47,937 nt of DNA. It comes from a bacterium (GTDB lineage: Bacteria; Bacillota_I; Bacilli_A; Izemoplasmatales; Hujiaoplasmataceae). Each line of letters begins with the position of its first letter. Within the stretch, counting starts at the first letter, position 1. The translations under genes were made by a program, and so were the position numbers. Of the stretch, positions 14,639 through 47,150 are shown in pieces. Under the pieces are notes generated by a model that saw only the letters and a list, made by a program, of their open reading frames with translations, was not told the origin of the DNA and did not search any database. The stretch covers positions 1-47,937 of the forward strand of contig JAUXXX010000026.1 of NCBI GenBank assembly GCA_030684695.1, given 5' to 3'.

Positions 14639-15559
14639 ATGATTTCGCGTATTCGTAGTATTACAAAAGTAGAACTATACCTTATGCTCACCCTTGGCGT
14701 CTTCGTCATGGCGATGGGTTATTATTTCTTTATCATACCCTCAGGTTTAGTCACCGGAGGTGCCACAGGGATTGCGATTATCTTAACCAGATATTTTCCT
14801 GACATACCTGTATCTTTGTTTTCTTTAGGTTTAAACGTGATTATCATGACACTGGGCTTCTTTTTCTTAGGAAAGAAAGAGTTCGTTCGCTCTGCCGTGG
14901 GTTCTTTAGAGTTTCCAATGTTTCTTGCTTTGTTTGAGTTAATCATCAAACCACCCCAATTCAGTATCAATGATATGATTTTGATGGCTTTATATGGAGG
15001 TGGATTGGTTGGCTTAGGGTTTGGGATTGTAACTCGGTATGGGGGTTCTACTGGGGGGTCGGATATTATCATCCGTATCGTCAAAAAGTATACTCCTTTG
15101 TCTCTTGCTCAAAGCTTATATGCAGTGGAAGCGACCATTGTATTAGCTGGTGCAATTACCTTCCAATCGGGATTCTCGAATGGAATTATCGCAGCATTGT
15201 ATGCCGTTTTAGTCATTTTTGTATCCGGAAAAGTGGCCGATATGATTGTCATCGGTGCGCAGCAAAAAAAGGCGGTCAATATCATCACGGATCATCCCAA
15301 AGAAATCAAAGCAGCTATATTTACATCATTGCGTCGGGGAATGACCGAAATTCCATCGCTTGGTGGATATACAGAAAGTAAAAAAACAGTACTCATCTTG
15401 GTCATCCAAAACTCGGAATATCACATTGTACGAAAAATTATTCAAGCCAATGATCCGAAAGCGTTTGTGTATGTGACTCCCGCGTCGGAAATCCATGGCG
15501 AATGGTCTTCCAAAGAAGAGGTGTTCGTAAAGCATGAATCAAATCCTAGAACGAAGTAA
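14639..15559 (+). CDS. YitT family membrane protein (DUF161/DUF2179)
   Basis: 306 residues with five or six membrane segments in the first ~200, including the family hallmarks FIIPSGLVTGGATGIAII and GFGIVTRYGGSTGGSDI. A cytosolic C-terminal DUF2179 domain of about 80 residues follows (AVNIITDHPKEIKAAI...RGMTEI...GGYTESKKTVLILVI). The function of YitT proteins is unknown. The ribosome site is weak; translation may depend on the preceding prfB, 9 bases upstream. The last 26 bases overlap recX, indicating a tight operon. Confidence 0.9.
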   Translation: MISRIRSITKVELYLMLTLGVFVMAMGYYFFIIPSGLVTGGATGIAIILTRYFPDIPVSLFSLGLNVIIMTLGFFFLGKKEFVRSAVGSLEFPMFLALFELIIKPPQFSINDMILMALYGGGLVGLGFGIVTRYGGSTGGSDIIIRIVKKYTPLSLAQSLYAVEATIVLAGAITFQSGFSNGIIAALYAVLVIFVSGKVADMIVIGAQQKKAVNIITDHPKEIKAAIFTSLRRGMTEIPSLGGYTESKKTVLILVIQNSEYHIVRKIIQANDPKAFVYVTPASEIHGEWSSKEEVFVKHESNPRTK

Positions 15560-16358
15560 ACGTAAGGGAAATTATTATGTCATCATGCTTTCTCCAAACG
15601 GGCAAAAGACCGAATATGCAGTATCTGAAGACATGATTGTGGAGCATCGTTTGATTGAAGGCAAAATTCTTGATGATTTTGCCTTTTCTGCTTTTATCAA
15701 AGCGCATGCAATTGATACGATTTATCAACGAATTGTCAAATCAATTGTGAGAAAACCCAAAACGACTCACGAAATCAAAGAAGAACTTCGCGAGAGTGCC
15801 TTGTCTTTGACGGTCCAAGATCAAATCATAAAAAAACTAAAAAGTAGGTTTTTGCTTGATGATGATCGATTGACCCAAAGCATTGTAGACTATCAAATGG
15901 ATGTCTTAGGAACTGGACCAAAAAAAATAGAATATGATTTACAAAAACGAGGAATCCATCCTGACCTAATCTCGAAGTACCTTAGTCAAATTGAAGATGA
16001 TGTAATCTTGCGACATTTGGAAAAACTATGGAAGAATGTGTTGAATAAAACAACAAAACAACCACTGATGCGCACCCTCGAAGTAGCGAAACGGTATTTT
16101 TATGACAAGGGATATTCAGACAATCAAGTGAAACGTTTTTTATCTGCTAAATCTCATGAACTGAAAGATCAAAAAGACGATGGTTTACTCCTAAAACAAG
16201 AGTATCAAAAACAACAAGCCAAACTACAAAAAGAATCGTTAGATCCATTTCAATATAAACGCAAATTGGTAAGTCGCTTGTTACAAAAAGGCTATCGCTA
16301 TGAGGATATATTATCCATCATTGAAGGAGGATTTGTAGATGAATTATCAGATGTCTGA
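15534..16358 (+). CDS. recX: RecX family regulator of RecA
   Basis: 274 residues, close to Bacillus RecX length. It consists of the three-helix RecX repeats: IVKSIVRKPKTTHEIKEELRE, a middle repeat with LGTGPKKIEYDLQKRGI, and C-terminal KLVSRLLQKGYRYEDILSII. RecX proteins bind RecA filaments and modulate recombination and SOS (family knowledge). It overlaps yitT by 26 bases and glgB by 20, so its expression is tied to a metabolic operon. No recA is in this window. Confidence 0.88.
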   Translation: MNQILERSKRKGNYYVIMLSPNGQKTEYAVSEDMIVEHRLIEGKILDDFAFSAFIKAHAIDTIYQRIVKSIVRKPKTTHEIKEELRESALSLTVQDQIIKKLKSRFLLDDDRLTQSIVDYQMDVLGTGPKKIEYDLQKRGIHPDLISKYLSQIEDDVILRHLEKLWKNVLNKTTKQPLMRTLEVAKRYFYDKGYSDNQVKRFLSAKSHELKDQKDDGLLLKQEYQKQQAKLQKESLDPFQYKRKLVSRLLQKGYRYEDILSIIEGGFVDELSDV

Positions 16359-18243
16359 GTTTGAACTGTTCTTATTTAACGAAGGTAAGCTTGAAAAAGG
16401 GTATCATCACTTTGGTGCACATTTACAAATTGATGCGATTGGACAAACTCAAGGGGTATGGTTTCATGTCTATGCACCTCATGCATCGATTGTCTCGGTT
16501 GTTGGCGATTTCAATCATTGGGATTCCAGAACCCATGTGATGAACAAGACCGATGATTTTGGGATTTTCTCACTGTATATTGCTGGGATAGGCGAATGGA
16601 CAAAATACAAATACTGTATTGTTACCAGTTATGGTCAAACATTATTCAAGGCAGATCCTTATGCATTCTTCAGTGATTATCGTCCAGAAACAGCATCAAA
16701 AGTATATGATATCGATGGATATTGTTGGAATGATGAAACCTATTTATCGAAAAGAAAGTCAAAAGACCACAAAGCAGAACCACTTTCTGTTTATGAAGTC
16801 CATCTTGGCAGTTGGATGCAAAAACCAGGTGGCATATTTCATAAATACAACGAGCTCGTTGATTATTTGATTCCTTATGTAAAAGCGCATGGATTTACAC
16901 ACATTGAGTTAATGCCGTTGACAGAACACCCTTTGGATGAATCATGGGGATATCAAGGGACGGGATATTTTAGTGCAACTTCCAGATATGGAGTGCCCAA
17001 AGATTTGATGTACTTTATCGATCAATGTCATCAACAAGACATCGGTGTAATTCTTGATTGGGTGCCTGGTCACATATGTAAAGACGCTCACGGTCTTTAC
17101 ATGTTCGACGGAGAACCACTCTATGAGTATGATAATTATCACATTCGTGAAAACATTGTCTGGGGAACTGTAAATCTTGATTTAGGAAAAGGGGTCACAC
17201 GAAGTTTCTTACTCTCGAATGCTCATTTTTGGTTGGATTATTTCCACGTAGATGGTTTTCGAATCGATGCTGTGTCGAATATTGTCTACCATTTAGGAAA
17301 TCCAAGTGTAGGGACTAATTATGGAGCGATTGAGTTTTTACAACGACTTTCGAATTCCATCAAAGAAAAAGATTCTTCCATCCTTATGTTTGCCGAAGAT
17401 TCTACTACATTTCCTGGAATGACAAAATCTGCTAAGGATGGCGGAATGGGATTTGACTACAAATGGAACATGGGATGGATGAACGACACACTACGCTATT
17501 TTGAAAAAGACCCAATTTATCGAAAATATCATCATGACTTGATTACTTTCTCCATGGTGTATGCTTATTCAGAGGCGTTTATATTGCCACTATCTCACGA
17601 TGAAGTGGTCCACGGAAAGCATTCACTCATCAATAAAATGCCTGGAGATTACTGGCAAAAATTCGCCAATTACCGCGTTTTAATCGGATTTCAATTTATG
17701 CATCCCGGGAAAAAACTATTGTTCATGGGTGGAGAGTTTGCTCAAATGCATGAATGGAAAGACAAAGAAGAACTTGATTGGTTCTTACTGGAGTACCCAT
17801 TGCACGAACGTGCCAATCGTTTTGTACGGGATACCTTACTCGTGTACAAACACCACAAAGCATTGTTTGAACTTGACCATGATCTTAGAGGGTTTTCATG
17901 GATTGACCAGTCCAATCGGGACCAATCCATTTTATCATTTGCACGCTATGGTAACAATTCCATGGATTGCGCTGTGGTGGTTCTTAATTTTACTCCTATT
18001 GTTTATCGTGACTATCAAATAGGGGTTCCTTTTGCTGGAACCTATGAAGAAATATTAAACAGTGATAAGGATATCTACGGTGGATCCAATCAATTCAATG
18101 GTGGAAGTATTCATTCACAGCCTCAATCCATCCATGGATATCAACAAGCTATTTCAATCACCATAGCACCGTTATCGATAGCTGTATTGATGTTTCAAAA
18201 GCCAACCACTCAAGAGGTAAATCAACAAGAATCGTTTTTTTAA
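16339..18243 (+). CDS. glgB: 1,4-alpha-glucan branching enzyme
   Basis: 634 residues. Introduces alpha-1,6 branches into growing glycogen. It has an N-terminal CBM48 module (VWFHVYAPHASIVSVVGDFNHWD) followed by the GH13 barrel. Catalytic residues are D310 (VDGFRIDAVS), E353 (FAEDST) and D421 (LSHDEVVHGKHSL); the last phrase is a GlgB hallmark. A C-terminal beta domain completes it. The start ATG 16339 lies within the end of recX, preceded by GAAGGAGG inside recX. It is the first gene of the glgB-glgC-glgD/A run. Confidence 0.97.
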   Translation: MNYQMSEFELFLFNEGKLEKGYHHFGAHLQIDAIGQTQGVWFHVYAPHASIVSVVGDFNHWDSRTHVMNKTDDFGIFSLYIAGIGEWTKYKYCIVTSYGQTLFKADPYAFFSDYRPETASKVYDIDGYCWNDETYLSKRKSKDHKAEPLSVYEVHLGSWMQKPGGIFHKYNELVDYLIPYVKAHGFTHIELMPLTEHPLDESWGYQGTGYFSATSRYGVPKDLMYFIDQCHQQDIGVILDWVPGHICKDAHGLYMFDGEPLYEYDNYHIRENIVWGTVNLDLGKGVTRSFLLSNAHFWLDYFHVDGFRIDAVSNIVYHLGNPSVGTNYGAIEFLQRLSNSIKEKDSSILMFAEDSTTFPGMTKSAKDGGMGFDYKWNMGWMNDTLRYFEKDPIYRKYHHDLITFSMVYAYSEAFILPLSHDEVVHGKHSLINKMPGDYWQKFANYRVLIGFQFMHPGKKLLFMGGEFAQMHEWKDKEELDWFLLEYPLHERANRFVRDTLLVYKHHKALFELDHDLRGFSWIDQSNRDQSILSFARYGNNSMDCAVVVLNFTPIVYRDYQIGVPFAGTYEEILNSDKDIYGGSNQFNGGSIHSQPQSIHGYQQAISITIAPLSIAVLMFQKPTTQEVNQQESFF

Positions 18244-18261
18244 TCTGTGAGGAGTGATTTC

Positions 18262-19392
18262 ATGAACCATCCAATTGTTGCCATGATTTTAGTGGGCGGA
18301 AAAGGGACGAGACTCAAAGAGTTAACCAAAGAAATCGCAAAACCTGCGGTTTCTTTTGGTGCGAAATATCGATTGATTGATTTCACCTTGTCTAGTTTGA
18401 CCAATAGTCAACTTGATGTTGTTGGAATCGTCACACAATACGAGCCATATGAACTCATGCGCTACATTGGCAGAGGGGCTTCTTGGGACTTAGATACCAT
18501 CGATGGCGGAATCACATTTCTAACTCCTTATGCCAAGAATGGCGATGTTTTATGGCAAAAAGGGACTGCTCATGCAGTCGCCCAGTATTTTAACTTTGTC
18601 AAAGAACATCAGGCCAGACAAGTCTTGATTTTATCAGGAGATCAAATCTACAAAATGGATTATCAAAACCTGGTTCGTGAACACTTACTAAATAATCGAC
18701 AATTAACCATTGCCGCAACAGAAGTACCATGGAATGAAGCACATCGATTTGGCATCTTGGATGTGGATGCATCCTCTAGGGTTGTTGGCTTCGAGGAAAA
18801 ACCAAAACAACCCAAACACAATTTGGCTTCCATGGGGATTTATTTGTTTAACACAGAAGTACTTGAATCTCTTTTGCAAGGAGCGAATACCGCAGAGTCG
18901 ATCGATTTTGGTCAAAATGTTATTCCAAGTGCCATTTATGGGGGAATGAATGTTGGGGTTTATCGCTTTAAAGGGTATTGGCGTGATGTTGGAACGATTG
19001 AGTCGCTTTATGAAGCGAACATGGATATGATTGACGACCAAGATTTTTTAGGATTAAACAGCAGTAAAAACTTGCCCGTATATTCCAAATCACTGAATTT
19101 GCCCCCGCATATAGTACTTGAGGATGGAGAAATCAAAGCATCGATCATTGCGGATGGATGCGTGATTGATGGTAGAGTATTTCACAGTACCGTTGGATAC
19201 TCCTGTATCATCAAGAAGAATGCATCCGTGAGTCGCTGTGTTATTTTACCTGGTTGTGTCATTGGTGAAGGGGCAATCATTGAGAATGCGATTGTTAATC
19301 ACAATGTAAAAGTTCCAGATCATTTTGTGTTTCGTCCCAAACAAGTAACCATCCTGGACACGATTCCACAAGGAGGGCTTGTTTATGAATAA
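18262..19392 (+). CDS. glgC: Glucose-1-phosphate adenylyltransferase
   Basis: 376 residues from ATG 18262 (GAGGAGTGATTTC upstream). It makes ADP-glucose from ATP and glucose-1-phosphate, the committed step of bacterial glycogen synthesis. The nucleotidyl loop GGKGTRLKELTKE is intact near the N terminus, followed by KPAVSFGAKYRLIDF and the substrate loops YWRDVGTI and FEEKPKQP. The C-terminal hexapeptide beta-helix starts around residue 290. It overlaps the downstream glgD/A fusion by 8 bases. The fusion's N-terminal half is the usual non-catalytic partner (GlgD) of this subunit. Confidence 0.96.
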   Translation: MNHPIVAMILVGGKGTRLKELTKEIAKPAVSFGAKYRLIDFTLSSLTNSQLDVVGIVTQYEPYELMRYIGRGASWDLDTIDGGITFLTPYAKNGDVLWQKGTAHAVAQYFNFVKEHQARQVLILSGDQIYKMDYQNLVREHLLNNRQLTIAATEVPWNEAHRFGILDVDASSRVVGFEEKPKQPKHNLASMGIYLFNTEVLESLLQGANTAESIDFGQNVIPSAIYGGMNVGVYRFKGYWRDVGTIESLYEANMDMIDDQDFLGLNSSKNLPVYSKSLNLPPHIVLEDGEIKASIIADGCVIDGRVFHSTVGYSCIIKKNASVSRCVILPGCVIGEGAIIENAIVNHNVKVPDHFVFRPKQVTILDTIPQGGLVYE

Positions 19393-21799
19393 TCTATTTT
19401 TGGTGATAGATGCGACGAACAAAGGCTCCTTTTCGAAGTTAACAAGACACCGGATGCCTGGTGCGTTGCCGTTTGGAGCGAAGTATCGGTTGATAGACTT
19501 TGCATTATCCAATTGTAAAAACTCATTAGTAACGAATGTGGCAATTTTTCCGTATGGAAATTATCGATCTTTATCTGACCATATCGGTTCTGGAGATCGC
19601 TGGGATTTAAATCGTCGAAAGGATGGTATTTTTATATTACCTCCAAAAAATCTAAACCTTACATATGAGGATTCTATTAGCTTCCAACGAATGTATGAGC
19701 ATTTGGAATACTTCGTTCGAAGCTCACAAGAATATGTGCTAGTAAGTCCAGCAAATATTGTCTGGAATGTGGATTATAATGTAATACTTCACCACCATTT
19801 GGTACAGGGTGCTGATATTACCGAAGTATTGAATGCTTCGAATGAACGCTTACGGACGTTTTTATTATCGAAGAAAACATTGTTAGAGTACATTGAGCAT
19901 TTTGATTCCATCAAATTTCGGAATTTAACCGAAGTGTTTGACTATGCACTTGGTTTACGTAAAACACGCTATGTATTTGAAGAACCATCGTTCATCATTG
20001 ATACACCAGAAGCCTTGTTTCGCGCTAACATGAATTTGTTGGATGTCCAATTAAAAGGACAAATTTTCAAACAAAATCGCCCCATCTTTTCCAAGGAAAC
20101 CATGTCTTCTCCTTCGCGATATGGATCAAAATCATTTGTAAAGCACAGTTTAGTTGCATCAGGTGCTGTAGTGAATGGAAGTGTCTTTTCCTCGATTATT
20201 GGACGTAAAGCTACCATCCATGAAGGCGCCCATGTTCATCACTCGGTTGTGATGAATCAGTGTATCATTGAAAAGGGGGCGACGGTGGAATACGCAATTT
20301 TGGACAAGGAAACAGTCGTAAAAGCAGGTGCGGTGGTCAAAGGTACCTTGGAGCATATTTTCGTTTCTGAGAAAAAGCAATTGGTCCAAACGGCAGAAGA
20401 AATCACAGTACTTCAACTGGCCGTTGAATGTGTTCCTTTTATTAAAACGGGAGGACTTGCGGACGTTGTTGGGGCACTATCCAAAGAACTAAGCAAACAA
20501 GGAATTCAATCAATTGTCATGTTACCTCTTTTTACTAAAATTAAGGAAAAGTATCAACTCTTTTTGGAGTTGATAGCCGAGCAAGCCATTCTCTATGACG
20601 GTGTGTTACGGAGAGCATCCTTATATAGTTATAACGATAAGCAAACGATGTTTTACTTCATCGAAAACTTTGACTTTTTTGAACGGAATAACATTTATGG
20701 ATACGAAGATGATGGAGATCGATTCGCATTTTTCACCAAAGCTTCTTTGGCGTTCTTAGATGTGTTATCTAAAAAACCAGACATCATTCATGTTCATGAC
20801 TGGCATTTGGGGTTGACTCCATTACTACTTAAATATTCACCAAATTATAGTCATATCAAGACATTATTAACCATTCATAACATTGAATACCAAGGAATAC
20901 ATTCTTCCGACATTTTACGTAAAGTCGGACTGGAGTCTTTGGTTTATCATGGACATCAAATCAATTATCTAGAAACGGGACTTCAACACGCAACGAGGAT
21001 TTCAACGGTTTCACCAACGTATCGCGATGAGTTAAAGTATGAATACTACTCGAAGAATCTCGTAGATTTAATCAATCGTCGAGATCGTGATTTTTATGGA
21101 ATCTTAAATGGCTTGACTGATCAATCCAATCCGAAAACGGACCTTTCTATCCAACAACGATACGAAAAATCCAATGTGAAAAGCGCAAAACATAAAAATA
21201 AGAAATTTTTACAAGAAACGATGCATTTAATCGTTGCGGATGATATGTTTGTGATTGGTATGGTTGGTAGAATTGTTGAGCAAAAAGGATTTGATATCAT
21301 CTTTGGAGCATTTGATCAGATGATGCAAAACGATAAAATTCAATTTGTACTTCTTGGTACAGGAGATGCGTATTACGAACAACGTCTTCGTCAATTAGAG
21401 GAACGATATCCAGGAAGAGTCAAAATGAATCTATCATTTGATGCTACAGATCCATCGTTTATCTATTCTGGTGCAGATGTCTTCTTGATGCCTTCTCGTT
21501 ATGAACCTTGTGGCACATCACAAATGATTGCGCTAAAATATGGTACTATCCCGATTGTTCGTCAAACCGGAGGGTTAAACGATACCGTAGAACAATACAA
21601 TCCTGTAACTAAAAAAGGAAATGGTTTTAAATTCTATAATTATGACAGCCGTGATTTGGTGTTCCAAATCCAAAATGCTTACCAATATTTTGCATTTCAG
21701 CCAGAAGATTGGACGCGTTTGGTGAGAAACGCGATGGATGCATCGTTTTCTTTTGAAACAACAGCTACCCATTATGCAGAGTTATACCGGATGATGTAA
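19385..21799 (+). CDS. Fused GlgD-like regulatory adenylyltransferase and glycogen synthase (GlgA)
   Basis: 804 residues in one uninterrupted frame; the start is ATG 19385, 7 bases after AGGAGGG. Residues 1 to ~335 resemble GlgD: LFLVIDATNKGSFSKLT, then MPGALPFGAKYRLIDFALSN, HIGSGDRWDL, and a C-terminal hexapeptide beta-helix. The catalytic GGxGTRL loop is missing, as in GlgD. From about residue 338 a complete GT5 glycogen synthase follows: LAVECVPFIKTGGLADVVG (ADP-glucose site), HVHDWHLG, GRIVEQKGFD, and SRYEPCGTSQMIALKYG. The two activities are normally separate proteins. The order glgC-[glgD+glgA] equals the usual glgC-glgD-glgA order with the stop/start junction removed. Confidence 0.93.
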   Translation: MNNLFLVIDATNKGSFSKLTRHRMPGALPFGAKYRLIDFALSNCKNSLVTNVAIFPYGNYRSLSDHIGSGDRWDLNRRKDGIFILPPKNLNLTYEDSISFQRMYEHLEYFVRSSQEYVLVSPANIVWNVDYNVILHHHLVQGADITEVLNASNERLRTFLLSKKTLLEYIEHFDSIKFRNLTEVFDYALGLRKTRYVFEEPSFIIDTPEALFRANMNLLDVQLKGQIFKQNRPIFSKETMSSPSRYGSKSFVKHSLVASGAVVNGSVFSSIIGRKATIHEGAHVHHSVVMNQCIIEKGATVEYAILDKETVVKAGAVVKGTLEHIFVSEKKQLVQTAEEITVLQLAVECVPFIKTGGLADVVGALSKELSKQGIQSIVMLPLFTKIKEKYQLFLELIAEQAILYDGVLRRASLYSYNDKQTMFYFIENFDFFERNNIYGYEDDGDRFAFFTKASLAFLDVLSKKPDIIHVHDWHLGLTPLLLKYSPNYSHIKTLLTIHNIEYQGIHSSDILRKVGLESLVYHGHQINYLETGLQHATRISTVSPTYRDELKYEYYSKNLVDLINRRDRDFYGILNGLTDQSNPKTDLSIQQRYEKSNVKSAKHKNKKFLQETMHLIVADDMFVIGMVGRIVEQKGFDIIFGAFDQMMQNDKIQFVLLGTGDAYYEQRLRQLEERYPGRVKMNLSFDATDPSFIYSGADVFLMPSRYEPCGTSQMIALKYGTIPIVRQTGGLNDTVEQYNPVTKKGNGFKFYNYDSRDLVFQIQNAYQYFAFQPEDWTRLVRNAMDASFSFETTATHYAELYRMM

Positions 21800-21868: not shown

Positions 21869-24283
21869 ATGAAGAAATTAGGAGTGTTTTCTACCAAGAA
21901 AACCTTAATGTTGGCCATGCAAGAGCGGATGCGTTCTTTATATTTGGTAGATGTTGAAGATTCATCGATTCGTCAACGCTATAATGTGCTTGGCAGTTTA
22001 GTAAAAGAAGAAATTGCGATTGATTGGATGAAGTCCATTCAAGCGTTACAACAATCGACGACAAAAGAAGTTCATTATTTTTCGATGGAGTTCTTGATTG
22101 GTCGTATGATTACGAATAATTTGATTAATTTGGGGATTCGAGATACCACTCAAGCTGCATTTGAAGAACTTGGTTTTGATATTAATGAAGTCGAAGAATA
22201 CGAATCCGATCCCGGGCTTGGCACAGGTGGATTGGGTCGTTTGGCCGCATGTTATTTGGATTCCATGGCATCCCTTGGTTATTTTGGCTTTGGACAAACG
22301 ATTCGCTATCGTTATGGACTATTTAAGCAAAAAATCAAAAATGGGTATCAAGAAGAACGTCCTGACAACTGGCTTTCGGATGGATATGTATGGGAGATTA
22401 GAAAAGACGAGGAAGCAGAAGACATTCCTTATTTTGGTTATGTAGAATACGATGGAAAGATGACGTATAAACCAGAAGAGTTCATCAAAGCGGTTCCATA
22501 TGATGTACCTATCGTTGGCTCTGGGAATCAATTTGTAACCCACTTACGCATGTGGAATGCTGAGCCAAGTCGTAAATACCCAAAAAACAAATCCGCCTTT
22601 GATTATGAGTTTGATTTGCAACAAATTTCCGGGTTTTTATATCCAGATGACACCACAGACCAAGGGAAACGATTGCGGTTGATGCAACAGTATTTCTTTA
22701 GTTCTGCTGGAGTAAAAAGTGTCTGCCGGAAGCATAAAGCGAAGTATGGAACGTTATCGAATTTGCATGAACACGTGTTGTTTCACATCAATGATACCCA
22801 TCCAACACTAGTTATTCCTGAGTTAATGCGTATTTTGCTTGATGAAGAACACATGGAATGGGCAGAAGCTTGGCACATTACCCAACACACAACCGCGTAT
22901 ACCAATCATACGATTATGGCGGAAGCACTTGAAAAATGGCCTATCCATTTACTGCAACCCATTTTACCTCGAATTTATCAGTTGATTGAGGAAATCAATC
23001 GCCGATTCATGAATCAGTTGATTGAAAAATATGCTCAAAGTAATCCAGAAGTGATCTCTCGCTTAGCAATCATTCATCATGGAATGATTCGTATGGCGAA
23101 TCTATGCATCGTCACATCTTCATCCGTCAATGGGGTGGCGAAGCTTCATACCGAAATTCTTAAAACGATTGAAATGAAAGATTTTTATGAATTATACCCC
23201 GAAAAATTTCAAAATGTAACCAACGGGATTACTCATCGTCGTTGGCTGATTCACTCCAATCCAGAGTTATCAACGATTCTTGATGATACTATAGGAACAT
23301 CCTGGAGAAAAAACCCAAGTGATTTAGACAAATTGGAAGCTTTTAAGAACGATTCTGTGATCCAAGCAAAAATTCATCAAATGAAGCATGACAAGAAACA
23401 AGCACTTGCGGATCGAATTTTTCGTGAACAAGGAGTGAAACTTGATCCAAGCTCGATGTTTGATATTCAAGTGAAGCGACTCCATGAATATAAGAGACAA
23501 CTATTGAATGCTCTACATATTTTAGATGTTTATCATGAGTTAAAAACCAATCCTTCCTTTAAAGAAGCCTATGTTCCTCATAGTTTCATCTTTGGTGCGA
23601 AAGCAGCGAGTGGGTATTATTTCGCAAAGAAAATTATCAAACTTCTAAATACCATTGCAGACAAAGTCAACAATGACCCACAAACAAATGCCTTCTTAAA
23701 AGTGATATTTGTAGAAAATTATAACGTCAGCTACGCAGAAATAATCATGCCTGCAGCGGACCTTAGTGAACAAATTTCTACGGCATCCAAAGAAGCCTCT
23801 GGGACTGGAAACATGAAGTTTATGATGAATGGTGCATTAACCATTGGTACAGAAGATGGAGCCAATGTGGAAATTCATGAATTGGTTGGCGATGAAAACA
23901 TCTTTATCTTTGGATTAAACGCTGCACAAGTCAATGAATTCAATCATAACAAATCGTACAATCCCAAAGCGATTTATGATGAATCACCAACCATCAGACG
24001 CGTACTTGATCAACTCATCAATGGATTCTTTGACCAAGTAGACAAAAACGAGTTTCGTGAAATTTTTGATCGTTTGGTGTATCAAGATGGCTATTTTGTA
24101 CTTCGTGATTATGAAGCATACAAAGAAGCCCACAAAAGAGCAAATGAAACGTATAAAAACAAAGAGTCTTGGGGAAGCAAAACAATCGTGAACATTGCAA
24201 AAAGTGGTGTATTTAGCTCAGATCGTTCCATTCAAGATTATGCGAATAACATTTGGCATATCTTGCCTTTTAACAATCAATAA
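21869..24283 (+). CDS. glgP: Glycogen/starch phosphorylase
   Basis: 804 residues, full length. It releases glucose-1-phosphate from the ends of alpha-1,4-glucan. The PLP attachment site is exact: EASGTGNMKFMMNGALTIG with K650 as the cofactor lysine. Other signatures are SMEFLIGRM, GLGTGGLGRLAACYLDSMA and NVTNGITHRRWL. It has its own promoter and terminator, separating breakdown from the glgB-C-D/A synthesis genes. GAGGTGATTTT precedes the ATG. Confidence 0.97.
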   Translation: MKKLGVFSTKKTLMLAMQERMRSLYLVDVEDSSIRQRYNVLGSLVKEEIAIDWMKSIQALQQSTTKEVHYFSMEFLIGRMITNNLINLGIRDTTQAAFEELGFDINEVEEYESDPGLGTGGLGRLAACYLDSMASLGYFGFGQTIRYRYGLFKQKIKNGYQEERPDNWLSDGYVWEIRKDEEAEDIPYFGYVEYDGKMTYKPEEFIKAVPYDVPIVGSGNQFVTHLRMWNAEPSRKYPKNKSAFDYEFDLQQISGFLYPDDTTDQGKRLRLMQQYFFSSAGVKSVCRKHKAKYGTLSNLHEHVLFHINDTHPTLVIPELMRILLDEEHMEWAEAWHITQHTTAYTNHTIMAEALEKWPIHLLQPILPRIYQLIEEINRRFMNQLIEKYAQSNPEVISRLAIIHHGMIRMANLCIVTSSSVNGVAKLHTEILKTIEMKDFYELYPEKFQNVTNGITHRRWLIHSNPELSTILDDTIGTSWRKNPSDLDKLEAFKNDSVIQAKIHQMKHDKKQALADRIFREQGVKLDPSSMFDIQVKRLHEYKRQLLNALHILDVYHELKTNPSFKEAYVPHSFIFGAKAASGYYFAKKIIKLLNTIADKVNNDPQTNAFLKVIFVENYNVSYAEIIMPAADLSEQISTASKEASGTGNMKFMMNGALTIGTEDGANVEIHELVGDENIFIFGLNAAQVNEFNHNKSYNPKAIYDESPTIRRVLDQLINGFFDQVDKNEFREIFDRLVYQDGYFVLRDYEAYKEAHKRANETYKNKESWGSKTIVNIAKSGVFSSDRSIQDYANNIWHILPFNNQ

Positions 24284-27081: not shown

Positions 27082-29139
27082 ATGCAAGGATTGATTTTTT
27101 TAGGTATCGGTGGTGGCGTATTGGCATTGATTTACGCATCAATTTTGTACTTGAAAATCAAAAAATCACCAGAAGGTAATGATCGAATGAAAGAAATTTC
27201 AGGATTCATTCGAACAGGAGCGATGTCATTTTTATTTAGGGAATATATCGTACTCGCTCCATTTGTGCTTGTTTTGTTTTTATTGATTGGCTTGTTTCTA
27301 GACCCCCAAAGCATCTCAATGGGAGGAAGTTTAGGAACATGGCTAACGGCGATTTCCTTTTTAGGAGGGGCGTTCTTATCTGCGTTTGCTGGATTTGTTG
27401 GGATGAAATCCGCAACATCTGCCAATGCGAGAACTTGTCAAGCTGCAAAGGACAAAGGATTGATTGGTGCATTGAAGGTAGCTTTCAATGGCGGAGCCGT
27501 TATGGGAATGCTTGTTGTTGGACTTGGCTTGTTTGGGGTTACGTTATTTTTAATCATTGCTCGACTCATCTTTCAGTTTGAAATGATTGATGCCGCAAAA
27601 ATTCTAACAGGGTTTGGGTTAGGAGCTTCCTCAATTGCCTTGTTTGCCCGGGTAGGTGGAGGGATTTATACCAAAGCAGCCGATGTTGGAGCGGATTTAA
27701 TGGGGAAAATTGAAGCCGGAATTCCTGAAGATGATCCAAGAAACCCTGCCGTTATTGCTGATAATGTAGGGGATAATGTTGGAGACGTTGCAGGAATGGG
27801 TGCAGACTTGTTTGAATCTTATGTAGGTTCCTTAATTGCGGCAATCACTCTTGGTTTGATTGCGCCCAGTGGAGATTCAATGACAAACGTTTTATTTCCT
27901 CTACTGTTGTCTAGTGTAGGAATCGTTGCGGCAATCATTGGGTCGTTCTTCGTACGAACAAAAGGTAATAACCCACAACATGCGCTTGATTTTGGAACGT
28001 TGGTATCCAATCTGCTGGTCGTTATCGGGGCACTTGCCTTGTCTTATCTGATGTTTGGTGACTTAAGAGCATTTTTCACAGTGACACTAGGATTGTTTGT
28101 CGGAATCTTCATCGGAAAAACAACAGAGTATTATACTTCAGGAAAACATAGTTATGTTCAACGAATTTCAAAACAATCGTTGACTGGTTCGGCCACAAAC
28201 ATCATTGAAGGATTGAGTGTTGGTATGCGCTCTACAGGTCTACCAGTACTTGCCATCTGTGTGGGAATCATTGGGGCCCATGCAATGCTTGGGATTTATG
28301 GCGTTGCTTTAGCAGCGGTGGGGATGTTAGCCACCATTGGCATTACCGTAGCAATAGATGCTTATGGACCCATAGCAGACAATGCTGGGGGAATTGCAGA
28401 GATGGCACATCTTGACAAACACGTACGTGAAATTACTGATAAACTAGATTCGGTTGGAAATACAACAGCGGCCATAGGCAAAGGATTTGCAATTGGCTCC
28501 GCTACACTGACCTCACTTGCTTTATTTGCTTCCTTTTTAGCTGCAGTCAATGCCAATGGCGTTGAGATAGAGTCCATTGATATTACCAATCCGAAAGTAA
28601 TTTCAGGGTTGTTCATTGGTGCGATGTTACCCTTCTTATTTTCAGCAATGACGATGACTTCGGTTGGAAATGCAGCGAAGAAGATGATTGATGAAGTGAG
28701 AAGACAGTTTACCAATGAACCTGGGATTTTAGCAGGGACACATTTACCAGATTATGGAAAGTGTGTTGATATCTCGACATCAGCGGCTTTAAAAGAAATG
28801 ATTTTACCAGGGATTATGGCAGTACTCGCCCCACTGATTGTTGGAATTGTTTTAGGCGCAGAAGCGCTTGGAGGATTATTAGCGGGTTCATTATCCAGTG
28901 GATTAATGATGGCTATCTTTATGGCCAACGCTGGAGGTGCGTGGGACAACGCAAAAAAATACATTGAAGAAGGCTACTATGGTGGAAAAGGATCAGAATC
29001 GCATAAAGCAGCGGTTACTGGGGATACCGTAGGGGATCCATTTAAAGATACTTCAGGACCATCCATTAATATTTTAATCAAATTGATGACCATTGTTTCC
29101 TTGGTCTTTGCATCGTTGTTTGGGACAGGATTATTCTAG
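27082..29139 (+). CDS. hppA: Membrane-bound K+-dependent ion-translocating pyrophosphatase
   Basis: 685 residues with about 16 membrane segments. It hydrolyses pyrophosphate to pump H+ or Na+ across the membrane. The substrate and Mg-binding motif is present: [36 protein letters not shown] second metal-binding block lies near the C terminus ([28 protein letters not shown]). At the K+-switch position the sequence reads [10 protein letters not shown] with A463; family knowledge assigns Ala to K+-dependent and Lys to K+-independent enzymes. I cannot decide between Na+ and H+ from motifs alone. Monocistronic, with its own promoter and a shared terminator. Confidence 0.95.
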
Positions 29140-31701: not shown

Positions 31702-32244
31702 ATGAGTAATCAAACCATCGAAACAATCTTGAATCGACGAAGTGTTCGCTCCTTTACTAACCAACCAGTATCAGTTCAAGACATCTCTTTAATTGTAGAA
31801 GCGGGATTGTACGCACCTTCTGCGAGGAATCGTCAGAATTGGCATTTCACGGTGGTAACAAACCCAGAAATGATTGAAAAAATGCATCAATTAACCTTAC
31901 AAGGGATGGAACAACGCGGATTAAAGGTGGATGAAAAAGACCATACGTTTTATCACGCTCCCTTAGTCATAGTTGTAAGCTCATTGATTGAAGGATTCGC
32001 GGAGTTTAATGCTGGGTGTGCCATTGAAAATATGGCAATCGCAGCGAAGTCACTGGGCATAGATTCTTGTATTATTGGACAAACTCGGTTCATGTATTCA
32101 CAAACCAACAAAGTCGATGTTAATTTGATGCTGAAGGTTCCTTTTGAGTATGAACACGATTGCTCGATTTGTTTTGGTTATGCCAAAGGCGAGTATCCGG
32201 TGGCAAAAGAACGAAAAGCAGGCGTTGTCGATTACATTCGTTAA
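31702..32244 (+). CDS. Nitroreductase family flavoprotein
   Basis: 180 residues from ATG 31702, placed by AAAGGAGATCTT. The opening TIETILNRRSVRSFTNQPVS is the FMN-binding start of the nitroreductase family, followed by AGLYAPSARNRQNWHF and, later, GCAIENMAIAAKSLGIDSCIIG. These FMN enzymes reduce nitro compounds, quinones or flavins with NAD(P)H; the natural substrate is unknown here. Ten bases separate it from the kinase gene, so they share a transcript. Confidence 0.9.
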   Translation: MSNQTIETILNRRSVRSFTNQPVSVQDISLIVEAGLYAPSARNRQNWHFTVVTNPEMIEKMHQLTLQGMEQRGLKVDEKDHTFYHAPLVIVVSSLIEGFAEFNAGCAIENMAIAAKSLGIDSCIIGQTRFMYSQTNKVDVNLMLKVPFEYEHDCSICFGYAKGEYPVAKERKAGVVDYIR

Positions 32245-32309
32245 TCATAGATGCTTTTGCTTACATGCAAAAGTATCTTTTCTTTCAAGTAGAAATGGAG
32301 ATGTATAGT

Positions 32310-34016
32310 ATGTGGCGGGATCATTATGAACGGTGGTTGGCATATCCTGAATTGGAGCCATCCCTTCGAAAAGACATGGAAGACAAAACAGAACATGAGT
32401 TGGAAGAAATGTTTCATTCTTCCCTTGGTTTTGGGACAGGTGGTATGCGAGGCATTCTTGGCGCAGGAACGAATCGCTTAAATGTGTATACCATTCGCAA
32501 AGCCAATGATGGGTTGGCAAGATATTTAGTCAAGAATTACCGCAAGAGTGAGTTAATTCGTGGTGTATGCATCGCCTATGACAATCGTAAAATGTCCAAA
32601 GAGTTTGCAATTGAATCGGCGAAAGTACTTGGATATTATGGCATTAAGTCCTATTTGTTTGATGATTTACGACCGACTCCAGAATTATCTTTTGCAGTAC
32701 GGCATTTAAAAGCGATTGCTGGTATTGTGATTACTGCTTCCCATAATCCACCAAACTACAATGGCTATAAAATATATGATGATTCAGGCTGTCAGTACAC
32801 CCCATTTTATGCAGATCAAATCGTTTCGATGGTGGAAGAAGTGACCGATTTATTTTCAGTTCCAGTACTAGAAGAATCTGAACTCAAATTACTTGGGTTA
32901 TTAGAATACATTGGCAAAGAAATTGACGATGCTTATGTGGCGTTGGTCAAAACAGTTTTGCTTCATCCAACACTTGAAAAAAAGCTCAAGGTTGTGTTTA
33001 CACCACTTCATGGAACGTCTAGAGTTCTTGGAGCGAGATTGCTAGAAGAATGTGGTTTTACATTCTTTCCAGTCATGAGTCAATTTAATCAGGATTCTTC
33101 CTTTTCCACCGTAAAATCTCCCAATCCAGAAAGTCCCGCCGCTTTTGAAGAAGCAATCAAAGTGGGAAACATTCACCAAGCAGATCTATTGATTGCGACC
33201 GATCCCGATGCAGATCGATTGGGAATAGCGATAAAACAAGAAAGTGGTTATTTATTACTTTCTGGGAATCAAACAGGGGCTATTTTAATTGATTACTTAT
33301 TAAAACAACGAAGAGTACTACAAACATTGCCCAAACGAGGTGTCGTATTTAATACCATTGTTACGTCTGATTTGGGTGCGAAGATTGCCAGAGAATTTGG
33401 ATATGATGTTATTTCTACTCTTACTGGATTTAAGTTTATCGGCGAGCAAGCGAAGCTGATTGAGAAAAGTGATGTTGAATTTTTGTTTGGGTATGAAGAA
33501 TCCTATGGGTATGTGGTAAAGGACTTTGTAAGAGACAAAGATAGTTTACAAGCAATGATGTTGGCGGTTGATGCGGCGAATTATTACTTGGTAACCGAAG
33601 GCAAAACATTGGTTGATAAACTTCATGATATTTACAAGGAGTATGGATATTACTTAGAAGCACTGCATAGCATTGATTTATTTGGAATTGAAGGAGCGAA
33701 ACGAATCAACCGGATTGTGGAATGGTTCCGGAATCATCCAGTTCGCTTTATTGCTGGAAATAAAGTGGATATCATTGAAGATTATGAAACAGGGAAACGA
33801 CTTCAAAATAGAAGCATTAAAATGTTAACATTGCCTCGTTCCAACGTCATTAAGACGATTCTAGAAAACGGGGATTGGTTTGTTTTACGACCTTCTGGAA
33901 CCGAACCCAAATTAAAGTTGTATGTAGGTGTGACGGGTCAAACATTAGAAGAAGCCCAAGAACGGCTACATAGTTTATCAAAAGCCATATTAGCGATGGT
34001 GGAACCAATCGCTTAA
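32310..34016 (+). CDS. pgcA: Phosphoglucomutase/phosphomannomutase
   Basis: 568 residues. Three in-frame ATGs lie close together (32295, 32301, 32310); GGAG at 32297-32300 has workable spacing only to 32310, so I start there. The catalytic serine S144 is in TASHNPPNYNGYK, the metal loop is TDPDADRLG, the sugar-binding loop is GYEESYGYVVKDFVRDKD, and the phosphate-binding loop RPSGTEPKLKLYVG is near the end. The length and the GYEESYGY motif match the PgcA/PGM2 class that interconverts glucose-6-P and glucose-1-P. It would feed GlgC and accept the GlgP product. Confidence 0.94.
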   Translation: MWRDHYERWLAYPELEPSLRKDMEDKTEHELEEMFHSSLGFGTGGMRGILGAGTNRLNVYTIRKANDGLARYLVKNYRKSELIRGVCIAYDNRKMSKEFAIESAKVLGYYGIKSYLFDDLRPTPELSFAVRHLKAIAGIVITASHNPPNYNGYKIYDDSGCQYTPFYADQIVSMVEEVTDLFSVPVLEESELKLLGLLEYIGKEIDDAYVALVKTVLLHPTLEKKLKVVFTPLHGTSRVLGARLLEECGFTFFPVMSQFNQDSSFSTVKSPNPESPAAFEEAIKVGNIHQADLLIATDPDADRLGIAIKQESGYLLLSGNQTGAILIDYLLKQRRVLQTLPKRGVVFNTIVTSDLGAKIAREFGYDVISTLTGFKFIGEQAKLIEKSDVEFLFGYEESYGYVVKDFVRDKDSLQAMMLAVDAANYYLVTEGKTLVDKLHDIYKEYGYYLEALHSIDLFGIEGAKRINRIVEWFRNHPVRFIAGNKVDIIEDYETGKRLQNRSIKMLTLPRSNVIKTILENGDWFVLRPSGTEPKLKLYVGVTGQTLEEAQERLHSLSKAILAMVEPIA

Positions 34017-36992: not shown

Positions 36993-39062
36993 TTATATTT
37001 CGATGATTTTTACTTCTCCTGGGGAAAGATACAAATATACTGATCCATCCGCATGGAATTGATCAAACATGCGAGGCCATTCGTACGTTCCATATACAAG
37101 TTTTCCGCTTCGCGCAGAGTTGTTGGCCTCGTCTCGCAGTTTTTGAATCGCACAGTTTACATGGATTCCAGTATGGTAGTTTGCATTAGCAAACACCAAC
37201 AGCATTTGATGACTAGTTGGATTGAAATAGCCAAATCCAACTACTTCTGAATCAAACTCATTGACATATAAGGGGATGTAATAGTCTAAATTCGTTAAGG
37301 AATCAATCCATCTTGCCCTTATGTGTTTGAGTCCATCTAGATGATCGGCTAATTCCCAACGATTTTCATTGAGGTAGTGGATGGCATATTTATCAAAGAG
37401 TGCCAATTTTCCATAAAAGAGATCTTCACTTGGTAAATTGTATTTGTCTTTGTCAGTACAATCAATGCCCGTATTCATCGGTTGGGTTTCATAGACTTCT
37501 TGTCCAGAATTGATAAAGGGTACTAAGTTTGGTAAGAAGAAGTTGAGTGCAGTTACCATTCTCGCAAGCACTCTTTTTCCATCACGGCCAGCAATACGAG
37601 CGGTGTCATGAGTTTCTGCACAAGCAAACATAGGAAGGGCAACATCTTTGGCACCATACACAAACTTGTGGAATCTTTTTTCCCAAATTCGTGGTTGCAT
37701 CCAAAATCCATTTCCAATGATCATGTTATAGCCAAGTGCTTTTGCTTTGGGAGCGTTGTCTTGATTGAGTTCTTCAGCGATAAAGGCAAAATCTGGATCA
37801 TTGGCTTTCGCTTGGGAAATAATCATGTCTAATAACTCTTTGGGAAGTGCATGTCCCATGTCAATACGCGCACCATCAATACCATAATGGGTTTGATAGT
37901 AAGGAATGATGTTTGCTAAGGTATTCCATAGTTCCATGTTTGGAAGATGCCCTTGGAATAGATTTGATTTAATCGTATCAAACAAAATATAGGGTGGTGT
38001 TTGTTTGTTCTTTAGATAGCGTACGGTTTCTTTAGGATGATCAAGATACATACGAAAGAATGTGACATCAGTCCAAGGTGGTTGGACATCATTGATGTGA
38101 TCACTAAATGCGGGAGCGATTTTTAAATCAAACTGCTGTTCAATCGCAGTGGTTAAATTTGTTGGATTTGACGCAATAAGTGCATTCCACTTTACTTCGT
38201 CTTGAAGTTTTGGATTGTGTTGAAACATCGAGATGTGGCGCATTACATCTAAGGAATGATAGACTTGAGGCATGTATTTTGGGTCAGGGGAGAGAGTGTC
38301 TTCAAGACCATCCACATAAGGAACTTTGTACTCGTGAAATTTCGATGCTTTGATCCAATAAAACCAATCAGGATGGTCTTTGATTAAATCATTTTCTACG
38401 GCATTAGTACGTGGAATGATATCGATGACCACACGCATTGAAAGCAAGTGACACGCTTCCACAAACGCTTTGAATTCATCTTCTACGGTTACTTGTGCTC
38501 CCGTTAAATCGTCTTTTAAGTTTGGATCTAAATCAAAGAATGATGCGACTCCATAGGGACTTCCGAGTTCACCCTTTTTATCCGTTAAGGAAAAACGCGA
38601 AATAGGTAACATATATACGGTATCTACCCCCATTTTTTGTAATAGAGGAAGCAACGATAGCATTTTCACAAACGTTCCAGTTTCCTTGAGTCCATCCAAG
38701 TTACACAAATCAAGAGAGTAACTACGGTCATGATCCCATGCGGTAGAAGTCCGAATCATTGTGGAATACATGACGGATTTACGAACCCAATCGCCACCAA
38801 AGGGATGAACGATTTGATTCATTTTGCTTAATGATTGAGAATAGATTTTTTTTGGTTCTTTGTGGATCAATATCCATTTTTTGATGACGGATGCATAAAA
38901 TGAGTACGGATTGACAAGCAGTTCTCCGCTGGGTAGTTTTCGAAGTTCTTCGCCTTGATAATTCCATGCATTCCACAAATCGGGAACGACATAATTGATT
39001 TTACCGTTAGGGATTTGTTTTTCTAAGATTGTTAATAGCTTTTCTAGTTTTGTGACAGCCAC
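36993..39062 (-). CDS. Intracellular GH13 alpha-glucan hydrolase/transferase
   Basis: 689 residues, no signal peptide. Starts with GTG at 39062 after AGAGGTGATATC. The GH13 barrel is recognisable: GVDTVYMLPISRF, VVIDIIPRTNA, nucleophile Asp in GIDGARIDMGHALP, acid/base Glu in FIAEELNQ, and the third Asp in AETHDTARIAGR. The ~100-residue N-terminal extension (PDLWNAWNYQGEELRKLP) and the short C-terminal beta domain do not match a textbook subfamily I can name. It probably trims or rearranges glycogen or maltodextrin in the cytoplasm. It diverges from gpmI across a cre-like site. Confidence 0.85.
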   Translation of the reverse strand: MAVTKLEKLLTILEKQIPNGKINYVVPDLWNAWNYQGEELRKLPSGELLVNPYSFYASVIKKWILIHKEPKKIYSQSLSKMNQIVHPFGGDWVRKSVMYSTMIRTSTAWDHDRSYSLDLCNLDGLKETGTFVKMLSLLPLLQKMGVDTVYMLPISRFSLTDKKGELGSPYGVASFFDLDPNLKDDLTGAQVTVEDEFKAFVEACHLLSMRVVIDIIPRTNAVENDLIKDHPDWFYWIKASKFHEYKVPYVDGLEDTLSPDPKYMPQVYHSLDVMRHISMFQHNPKLQDEVKWNALIASNPTNLTTAIEQQFDLKIAPAFSDHINDVQPPWTDVTFFRMYLDHPKETVRYLKNKQTPPYILFDTIKSNLFQGHLPNMELWNTLANIIPYYQTHYGIDGARIDMGHALPKELLDMIISQAKANDPDFAFIAEELNQDNAPKAKALGYNMIIGNGFWMQPRIWEKRFHKFVYGAKDVALPMFACAETHDTARIAGRDGKRVLARMVTALNFFLPNLVPFINSGQEVYETQPMNTGIDCTDKDKYNLPSEDLFYGKLALFDKYAIHYLNENRWELADHLDGLKHIRARWIDSLTNLDYYIPLYVNEFDSEVVGFGYFNPTSHQMLLVFANANYHTGIHVNCAIQKLRDEANNSARSGKLVYGTYEWPRMFDQFHADGSVYLYLSPGEVKIIEI

Positions 39063-45875: not shown

Positions 45876-47150
45876 TTAAGATAGATTGAATGAGTAATAA
45901 ATTTCTTCCTTTTTCATTGGTGTCAGGAGACCTATTCCTTTATGATATCGTTGCGTGTTGTAATAATTCATATACTCGTTAACGTGTTGGATGTATTCTT
46001 GAATCGTGCGAAACGATTGCCTCTGATAGATGGCTTCCTTTTTGAAGTTAGAAAAGAACGATTCCATGACAGAGTTGTCGTAGGGATATCCTGGAGCGCT
46101 GAATGATTGAGAGATTTCTTGTTTTCTAAGATACATCTGGAACTGTTCCGAAGTGTATTGAACCCCGCGATCACTATGAAACATGTGAGGCTTTGTTTTG
46201 CGATTATCAGTAGCTGAATCAAAGGTAAGGAGCGTTAATCTTGTGTTACATTTCCTCGAAACAAGATGGGCGATAATCTTTCTAGAAAATAAATCCAAAA
46301 TAGCACACAAATAGACAGGTTTTTTGTTGATCTTGATTTCAGTAATATCGCTGACCCAGACTAAATTGGGAGCTTTCTGGGTGAATTGTTGATTGAGAAG
46401 GTTCTTACAGTTTTCATTTGTTCGTTTCGGTGGTCGAATGAAAGCTGGCTTCTTTTTCGATTGATCGCTGATACCCATATCTTGCATTAATTGATACATT
46501 TTCTCTATGCTTATGGATGTTCCGTTAAGAATCATATCATTTCGCATCTTAACGCCACCGATTCTTTTCTTATGTTTTAAATAAACTTTCATGATTTCCT
46601 TTTTAAGCAACTGATCACGTAACTGATGGATTGTCATTTTTGTATGATACTGATAGTAATAGGTCGAACGGGAATAGTTGAATACCTCACATAGCAATTT
46701 GAGTGAATGTTTCGGTCGAAGCGATGTGATGATAGCTTGTTTTTCAAACACACTCATATCGTGCGTAATCGATGTGGATTTAAGTAATGAGTTAATGGTT
46801 TTAAGGCGTGTGGTTTGATCTGTTGCGTAGGCCCTTTTACTTGTCAACTCATTTGGTAAAGATTGCTTGTATTTCCTTGTCCACAAATAGACAGTACTTT
46901 GCTTGAGATTGTAATCAATGCAAAGGCTTTTAACAGAAATACCCGAGAGAACTTTAAGTACAATCATCGATTGTTCCTTTTGAGAGTAAACAGTTGATTT
47001 GTCTTGAATAAAGGCTTCCTTCTGGTTGATCCATGAATAGATTGTACTTTTTTTTAGCTTGTAATTTTTACCTATTTCTTCGACGTTTTTTCCTTTCAGA
47101 AAATCAATATATACTGAATTTTGGAGGTGTAGCCTCTGCTCTTTATTCAT
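45876..47150 (-). CDS. IS3-family transposase (single-frame)
   Basis: 424 residues, apparently intact. The DDE catalytic triad of the retroviral-integrase fold is D268 (WVSDITE), D327 (FHSDRGVQYTS) and E363 (NSVMESFFSNFKKE). The N-terminal 95 residues contain two similar helix-turn-helix units (about 12-42 and 61-92). IS3 elements usually split HTH (orfA) and DDE (orfB) into two frames joined by ribosomal frameshifting; here both are in one frame. AAAGGAGACC precedes the ATG. I could not find convincing terminal inverted repeats or a target duplication. Confidence 0.92.
   Translation of the reverse strand: MNKEQRLHLQNSVYIDFLKGKNVEEIGKNYKLKKSTIYSWINQKEAFIQDKSTVYSQKEQSMIVLKVLSGISVKSLCIDYNLKQSTVYLWTRKYKQSLPNELTSKRAYATDQTTRLKTINSLLKSTSITHDMSVFEKQAIITSLRPKHSLKLLCEVFNYSRSTYYYQYHTKMTIHQLRDQLLKKEIMKVYLKHKKRIGGVKMRNDMILNGTSISIEKMYQLMQDMGISDQSKKKPAFIRPPKRTNENCKNLLNQQFTQKAPNLVWVSDITEIKINKKPVYLCAILDLFSRKIIAHLVSRKCNTRLTLLTFDSATDNRKTKPHMFHSDRGVQYTSEQFQMYLRKQEISQSFSAPGYPYDNSVMESFFSNFKKEAIYQRQSFRTIQEYIQHVNEYMNYYNTQRYHKGIGLLTPMKKEEIYYSFNLS

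Follow-up and report, generated by a model that had tools for sequence, protein, structure and literature searches.

A fused GlgD-GlgA gene within the glycogen operon of wall-less Bacilli

The glycogen operon usual in Firmicutes has the gene order glgBCDAP. The window, which is the whole stretch of DNA analysed (47,937 nucleotides), corresponds to C15, one of the 129 contigs of a draft genome of 1.93 Mb (87% complete), and the host order is a deep lineage of Bacillus relatives that lack a cell wall. The glycogen locus in the window reads recX-glgB-glgC-glgDA-glgP, all on the forward strand (Table 1), and represents the glgBCDAP order of the Firmicutes with D and A merged. The segment 19385-21799 is a single open reading frame of 804 residues without an internal stop, and glgDA is a real merger of two adjacent glycogen-making genes, widely kept. 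The first-pass annotation had described an uninterrupted 804-codon GlgD-GlgA fusion with glgC just upstream; the translation bore this out, as did scores above the cut-offs of both TIGR02092 and TIGR02095, and the 8-base overlap that it gave between the start of glgDA and the stop of glgC was read directly (ATGAATAA, 19385-19392). The mechanical start of the frame is a TTG at 19379, and the ATG at 19385 is preceded by a strong ribosome-binding site. Relatives with names, showing 60-65% identity over GlgDA, are mostly Candidatus Izemoplasmatales and other Tenericutes or Bacilli metagenome genomes, which makes membership of that order very probable.

Table 1. Positions in the window of the glycogen genes, of recX and of the parts of glgDA
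Feature	Coordinates	Strand	Basis or remark
recX	15534-16358	+	directly upstream, runs into glgB
glgB, glycogen branching enzyme	16339..18243	+	NF003811, 811.8 bits, over cut-off
glgC, catalytic ADP-glucose pyrophosphorylase subunit	18247..19392	+	GGKGTRL, SGDQIYKMDY and FEEKP present
Ribosome-binding site AAGGAGG of glgDA	19370..19376	+	within the end of glgC, 8 bases before ATG 19385; read directly
glgDA, fused GlgD-GlgA gene	19385..21799	+	804 aa + stop; TIGR02092 and TIGR02095 over cut-offs; 53 distinct full-length homologues
GlgD half, residues 1-319	19385..20341	+	degenerate nucleotidyltransferase domain, then left-handed beta-helix; alignment, Pfam, fold match
Joint, residues 320-340	20342..20404	+	GlgD C-terminal strand, few residues, then first GlgA strand
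GlgA half, residues 341-804	20405..21796	+	complete GT5 ADP-glucose glycogen synthase; Pfam, TIGR02095, Foldseek
glgP, glycogen phosphorylase	21869..24283	+	TIGR02093, 1067 bits, over cut-off

The N-terminal half exceeded the cut-off of the NCBIfam model for GlgD (TIGR02092) by a narrow margin, 244.6 against 236.6 bits, this cut-off being exceeded also by some GlgC proteins. Pfam recognised the hexapeptide beta-helix at residues 248-318, in agreement with the first description, together with a weak nucleotidyltransferase match at 19-147, and a Foldseek search with the GlgDA model returned the ADP-glucose pyrophosphorylases 5w6j (TMt 0.69) and 5l6s. Alignment with GlgC and free GlgD proteins showed that the GGxGTRL loop is absent, as had been noticed, and that the losses go further: the catalytic Asp of the SGD motif is gone, SPA standing in its place, and about 40 residues with the EEKP sugar-binding segment, its Lys included, are missing. 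The SGD motif is replaced across the 50 aligned fusions. In the GlgD tree the fused halves lie on the GlgD side, not on the GlgC side, of a fully supported branch.

The mean frequency of the top residue, calculated over 50 genomes, was 0.72 for residues 1-150 of the GlgD half, 0.71 for the N-terminal domain of GlgC, and 0.59 and 0.64 for two parts of the GlgA half. Judged by these values, the dead N-terminal domain of GlgD is under strong constraint, like the catalytic N-terminal domain of GlgC and more than the GlgA half. The GlgD half is probably a functional partner, because its dead domain is as conserved as that of GlgC and a relic would have decayed. The glgC product is its likely partner, and gene order and conservation suggest that the GlgD half binds and modulates GlgC.

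The C-terminal half scored 474.6 bits with the NCBIfam model for the ADP-glucose-type GlgA (TIGR02095; cut-off 328.45), and Pfam assigned Glyco_transf_5 to residues 342-564 and a GT1-type C-terminal domain to 619-763. The catalytic and donor-binding set is kept in the 53 homologues, namely the Lys of KTGGL, the Asp, the His, the RxxxxK element and EPCG; K354, D360, H469, R629, K634, E707 and C709 are invariant among them. The model superimposed on E. coli glycogen synthase 2qzs (TMt 0.90, rmsd 2.3, 31% identity) and showed the GT-B fold. These data uphold the original assignment of a complete GT5 glycogen synthase, and the half is predicted to transfer glucose from ADP-glucose to the glucan.

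An AlphaFold2 monomer model was built from the 53-row alignment. Each half was confidently predicted (mean pLDDT 90.7), and the relative placement of the halves was of low confidence (pTM 0.61), so that their orientation is not fixed. The modelled beta-helix stops near residue 319, and residues 341-345 make up the first GlgA strand; the junction, formerly placed at about residue 338 (20390-20405), is thereby refined to about residues 320-340 (Table 1). The 53 distinct full-length fusions differ widely (pairwise identities of 34% to 97%); the joint is nevertheless free of gaps over 27 columns and the beta-helix over 78, while several dozen gapped columns occur in the GlgA half of the same alignment. 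Near the joint, the 53 fusions share no internal start preceded by a ribosome-binding site; free GlgA is therefore probably not made from glgDA, and an internal start releasing it was rejected as a candidate. Two proteins of family f10 retain a Met at the old GlgA start, without a ribosome-binding site.

The fusion was followed in two samples of genomes. The order-level sample consisted of 61 genomes, i.e. that of the window and 60 relatives from its own family and order; the full-length fusion was present in one frame in 50 of them, in pieces in seven, and was absent from four. The seven partial cases run to or near contig ends, and in one of them, on a low-coverage contig, a stop lies just short of the contig end. 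A split of glgD and glgA from the fused state was not seen in any of the 61. Of 395 genomes sampled across the class, those with the fusion outside the order belonged only to families f10 (three genomes) and f14 (six genomes). Separate glgD and glgA genes were found in two more f14 genomes, both of genus g79, and in matches from f21 and f7. A search of the class with the GlgD profile gave, among the matches listed, at least about 100 free GlgDs, each in a frame of about 367-390 residues; among these matches none outside the order, f10 and f14 was fused. A second draw from the phylum returned only genomes of this class, with no further fusion. Apparent fusions in distant organisms, Clostridia (L055, L060 and L072) and one labelled Methanobrevibacter (L070), were rejected, their D or C and A frames being separate.

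The draft state of the genome might have raised the suspicion that assembly or sequencing had joined two genes. This explanation is refuted by the identical in-frame joint in dozens of independently assembled genomes, including single-contig ones such as CP076020.1; a stop or frameshift at the junction, separating two ordinary genes, is excluded, as the 53 distinct full-length relatives are open through it.

The order glgB-glgC-glgDA-glgP is kept wherever the contig is long enough, and the overlap of glgC with glgDA is exactly 8 bases in 34 of the 51 measurable cases. Upstream, a yitT-like gene and recX (14639-16358, forward strand) overlap into glgB, an odd pairing of DNA-repair and glycogen genes, and many relatives keep recX next to glgB. 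Past the downstream end of the operon, after a few genes, lies a membrane H+-pyrophosphatase (27082-29139, forward strand; Pfam H_PPase, 914 bits), through which the cell could regain energy from the pyrophosphate that GlgC sets free. Further genes of glycogen metabolism may lie in the region, given a phosphoglucomutase-type enzyme (32160-34016, forward strand) and an alpha-amylase-like protein with a weak match (36993-39062, reverse strand). A transposase with an integrase core is found near the end of the window (45876-47150, reverse strand).

The same genome (G000) carries a second pair of genes on another contig (C35:1-2366; L107, L002), consisting of an unfused GlgA, 37% identical, directly followed by a catalytic GlgC; the contig ends within this GlgC, in which the catalytic loop is present. 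The pair is common to most relatives. Because it exists beside glgC-glgDA, these cells have two ADP-glucose routes. This could be a reason for physically pairing one set; alternatively, it may indicate that glycogen is not made by the fused set alone. A fusion in the second locus itself, suggested for instance by an 886-residue frame in G082, was rejected, GlgC and GlgA being separate frames there.

Phylogenetic analysis supports a single origin of the fusion. In the GlgA tree all fused halves form one clade (SH-aLRT 99), and in the tree of the joined D and A data the fused clade again has a support of 99, with the unfused g79 as its sister (89). The GlgD tree taken alone agrees, though its weak support for the fused clade (52) is a point against. 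The joined data reject f14 as a single clade (AU p 0.0175), a conflict that could reflect transfer between lineages, long branches or an uncertain species tree. Secondary splitting as the source of the unfused g79 genes is not favoured, since their GlgA lies outside the fused clade and the monophyly of f14 is rejected.

In unfused relatives the end of GlgD is usually only a few codons from the start of GlgA, and in g79, f21 and others one stop codon is all that parts the two genes, which share a frame. In g79 of family f14 (L089, 2440-2600; L090, 2860-3000) TAA-ATG alone separates glgD from glgA, and the ribosome-binding site of glgA lies inside the end of glgD. This arrangement is likely to represent the state before fusion, and loss of the stop with little other change would yield the joint observed. 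The free GlgD of g79 is already shortened, showing that the shortening does not depend on the fusion; probably GlgD was shortened first and the fusion followed later, once.

In the Firmicutes studied so far, GlgC and GlgD form heterotetramers in which the inactive GlgD raises the activity or alters its control (PMC9093745). By analogy, the reading that we favour and regard as reasonably probable joins a single stop-loss origin to a GlgD half that enters the complex with GlgC, giving a pyrophosphorylase with a glycogen synthase on each GlgD. A stop codon would have been lost between adjacent, in-frame glgD and glgA of a glgBCDAP operon; the dead GlgD half would associate with GlgC in the way of the free GlgD of other Firmicutes, and the ADP-glucose pyrophosphorylase would consist of about two GlgC and two GlgDA chains. 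The main effect would be to hold the enzyme that makes ADP-glucose and the one that uses it in one particle, at a fixed ratio, and to have them translated together. Heterotetramer formation, tethering and any effect on flux or control are inferred. Tethering of the two steps, as proposed in the first-pass annotation, is a fair reading of what GlgD does in other Firmicutes: if GlgD binds GlgC, the synthase is attached to the GlgC/GlgD complex. Neither channelling nor shared allostery is implied by this. Some features speak against the favoured reading: the model for the assembly comes from distant relatives whose GlgD is free and longer, the present one being about 40 residues short of the usual length, the placement of the halves is uncertain in the model, and most genomes have the separate GlgA/GlgC pair, so that fixed pairing is not the only glycogen route.

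The fusion might instead be nearly neutral, a chance loss of the stop after which both halves work as before, the gain being at most that D and A are made in equal amounts. Neither half is unusual, the closest unfused relatives would become fused by losing a single in-frame stop codon, and with one origin just one event has to be explained; a neutral joint should however drift in length or split again, whereas this one is kept free of gaps across the order and two other families, with no split among the genomes of the order sampled, and we hold this explanation to be possible but unlikely. It is rather unlikely that GlgC and GlgDA constitute an obligate two-step machine, with a channelled donor or allostery from GlgD to the synthase, set apart from the second GlgA-GlgC pair. 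Decidedly unlikely, and not favoured, is substrate channelling, in which the tethered GlgA site would receive ADP-glucose from GlgC without its entering the common pool, or allosteric control shared across the joint. Consecutive enzymes are indeed held together, the length of the joint is constant in the 53 proteins, and the second pair would compete in many of the same cells for the free pool of ADP-glucose; but the fused GlgD is the non-catalytic subunit, which puts the GlgC site on a neighbouring chain, the orientation of the halves is not fixed by the monomer model, and the structure of the comparable TreS-Mak complex is said to rule out channelling (PMC11046441). The shortening and divergence of GlgD, together with the activity of GlgC alone in other Firmicutes (PMC9093745) and the chance that GlgC acts here as a homotetramer, would suit a GlgD half that does not pair with GlgC and serves GlgA as an oligomerisation or glucan-binding scaffold. 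We consider this very improbable, given the glgC gene directly upstream with a conserved overlap, the N-terminal domain of GlgD constrained as much as that of GlgC, and the shortened free GlgD of the unfused sister genus, which makes the shortening independent of the fusion.

Bacterial glycogen synthesis is controlled at ADP-glucose pyrophosphorylase, of which GlgD is the least understood component in Firmicutes. The conserved link between GlgD and the synthase suggests that pyrophosphorylase and synthase may act as one complex, perhaps a transient one where the genes are separate. The fused gene offers a ready-made construct with which tethering and channelling could be tested in glycogen synthesis, and as a clean, rare genomic marker it links one wall-less order of Bacilli to parts of two further families.

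The components and the pathway are standard; the architecture appears to be new, no report of a GlgD-GlgA fusion having been found in the open-access literature, including the glycogen papers on Turicibacter, Izemoplasma/Izimaplasma and Tenericutes. For environmental Tenericutes, glgABP has been reported with the fusion unmentioned (PMC7301438). A 2024 review of prokaryotic alpha-glucan enzymes lists the fusions TreS-Mak, GlgB-MalQ and GlgA-GlgB (PMC11046441), and GlgD is not mentioned in the accessible part of its text. As GlgD is free elsewhere in the class and the fusions described are of other glycogen enzymes, the initial impression of a non-standard architecture is supported.

The closest known system is the glgBCDAP operon with a GlgC/GlgD heterotetramer of Geobacillus stearothermophilus, Ruminococcus albus and Streptococcus mutans, which has the same genes in the same order, a catalytic GlgC with a non-catalytic GlgD, and an ADP-glucose-type GlgA; the present locus differs in that GlgD and GlgA form one chain and that about 40 residues around the sugar-binding segment are gone from GlgD. 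In the GlgA-GlgB protein of Waddliaceae and Criblamydiaceae, called exceptional in its paper, a glycogen synthase is likewise joined to a pathway enzyme through neighbouring genes, but the partner is a branching enzyme, C-terminal and reported inactive, and the GlgC route, intact here, is broken (PMC7935935). The Neisseria suica GlgB-MalQ is also a merged pair of glycogen genes, with different enzymes and a different pathway (PMC11046441). TreS-Mak (TreS-Pep2) of the GlgE pathway similarly unites consecutive steps that in other bacteria are carried out by separate, complex-forming proteins (PMC11046441); both of its halves are catalytic and it belongs to a different pathway, whereas in GlgDA the synthase is fused to the non-catalytic subunit of the enzyme that precedes it in the pathway.
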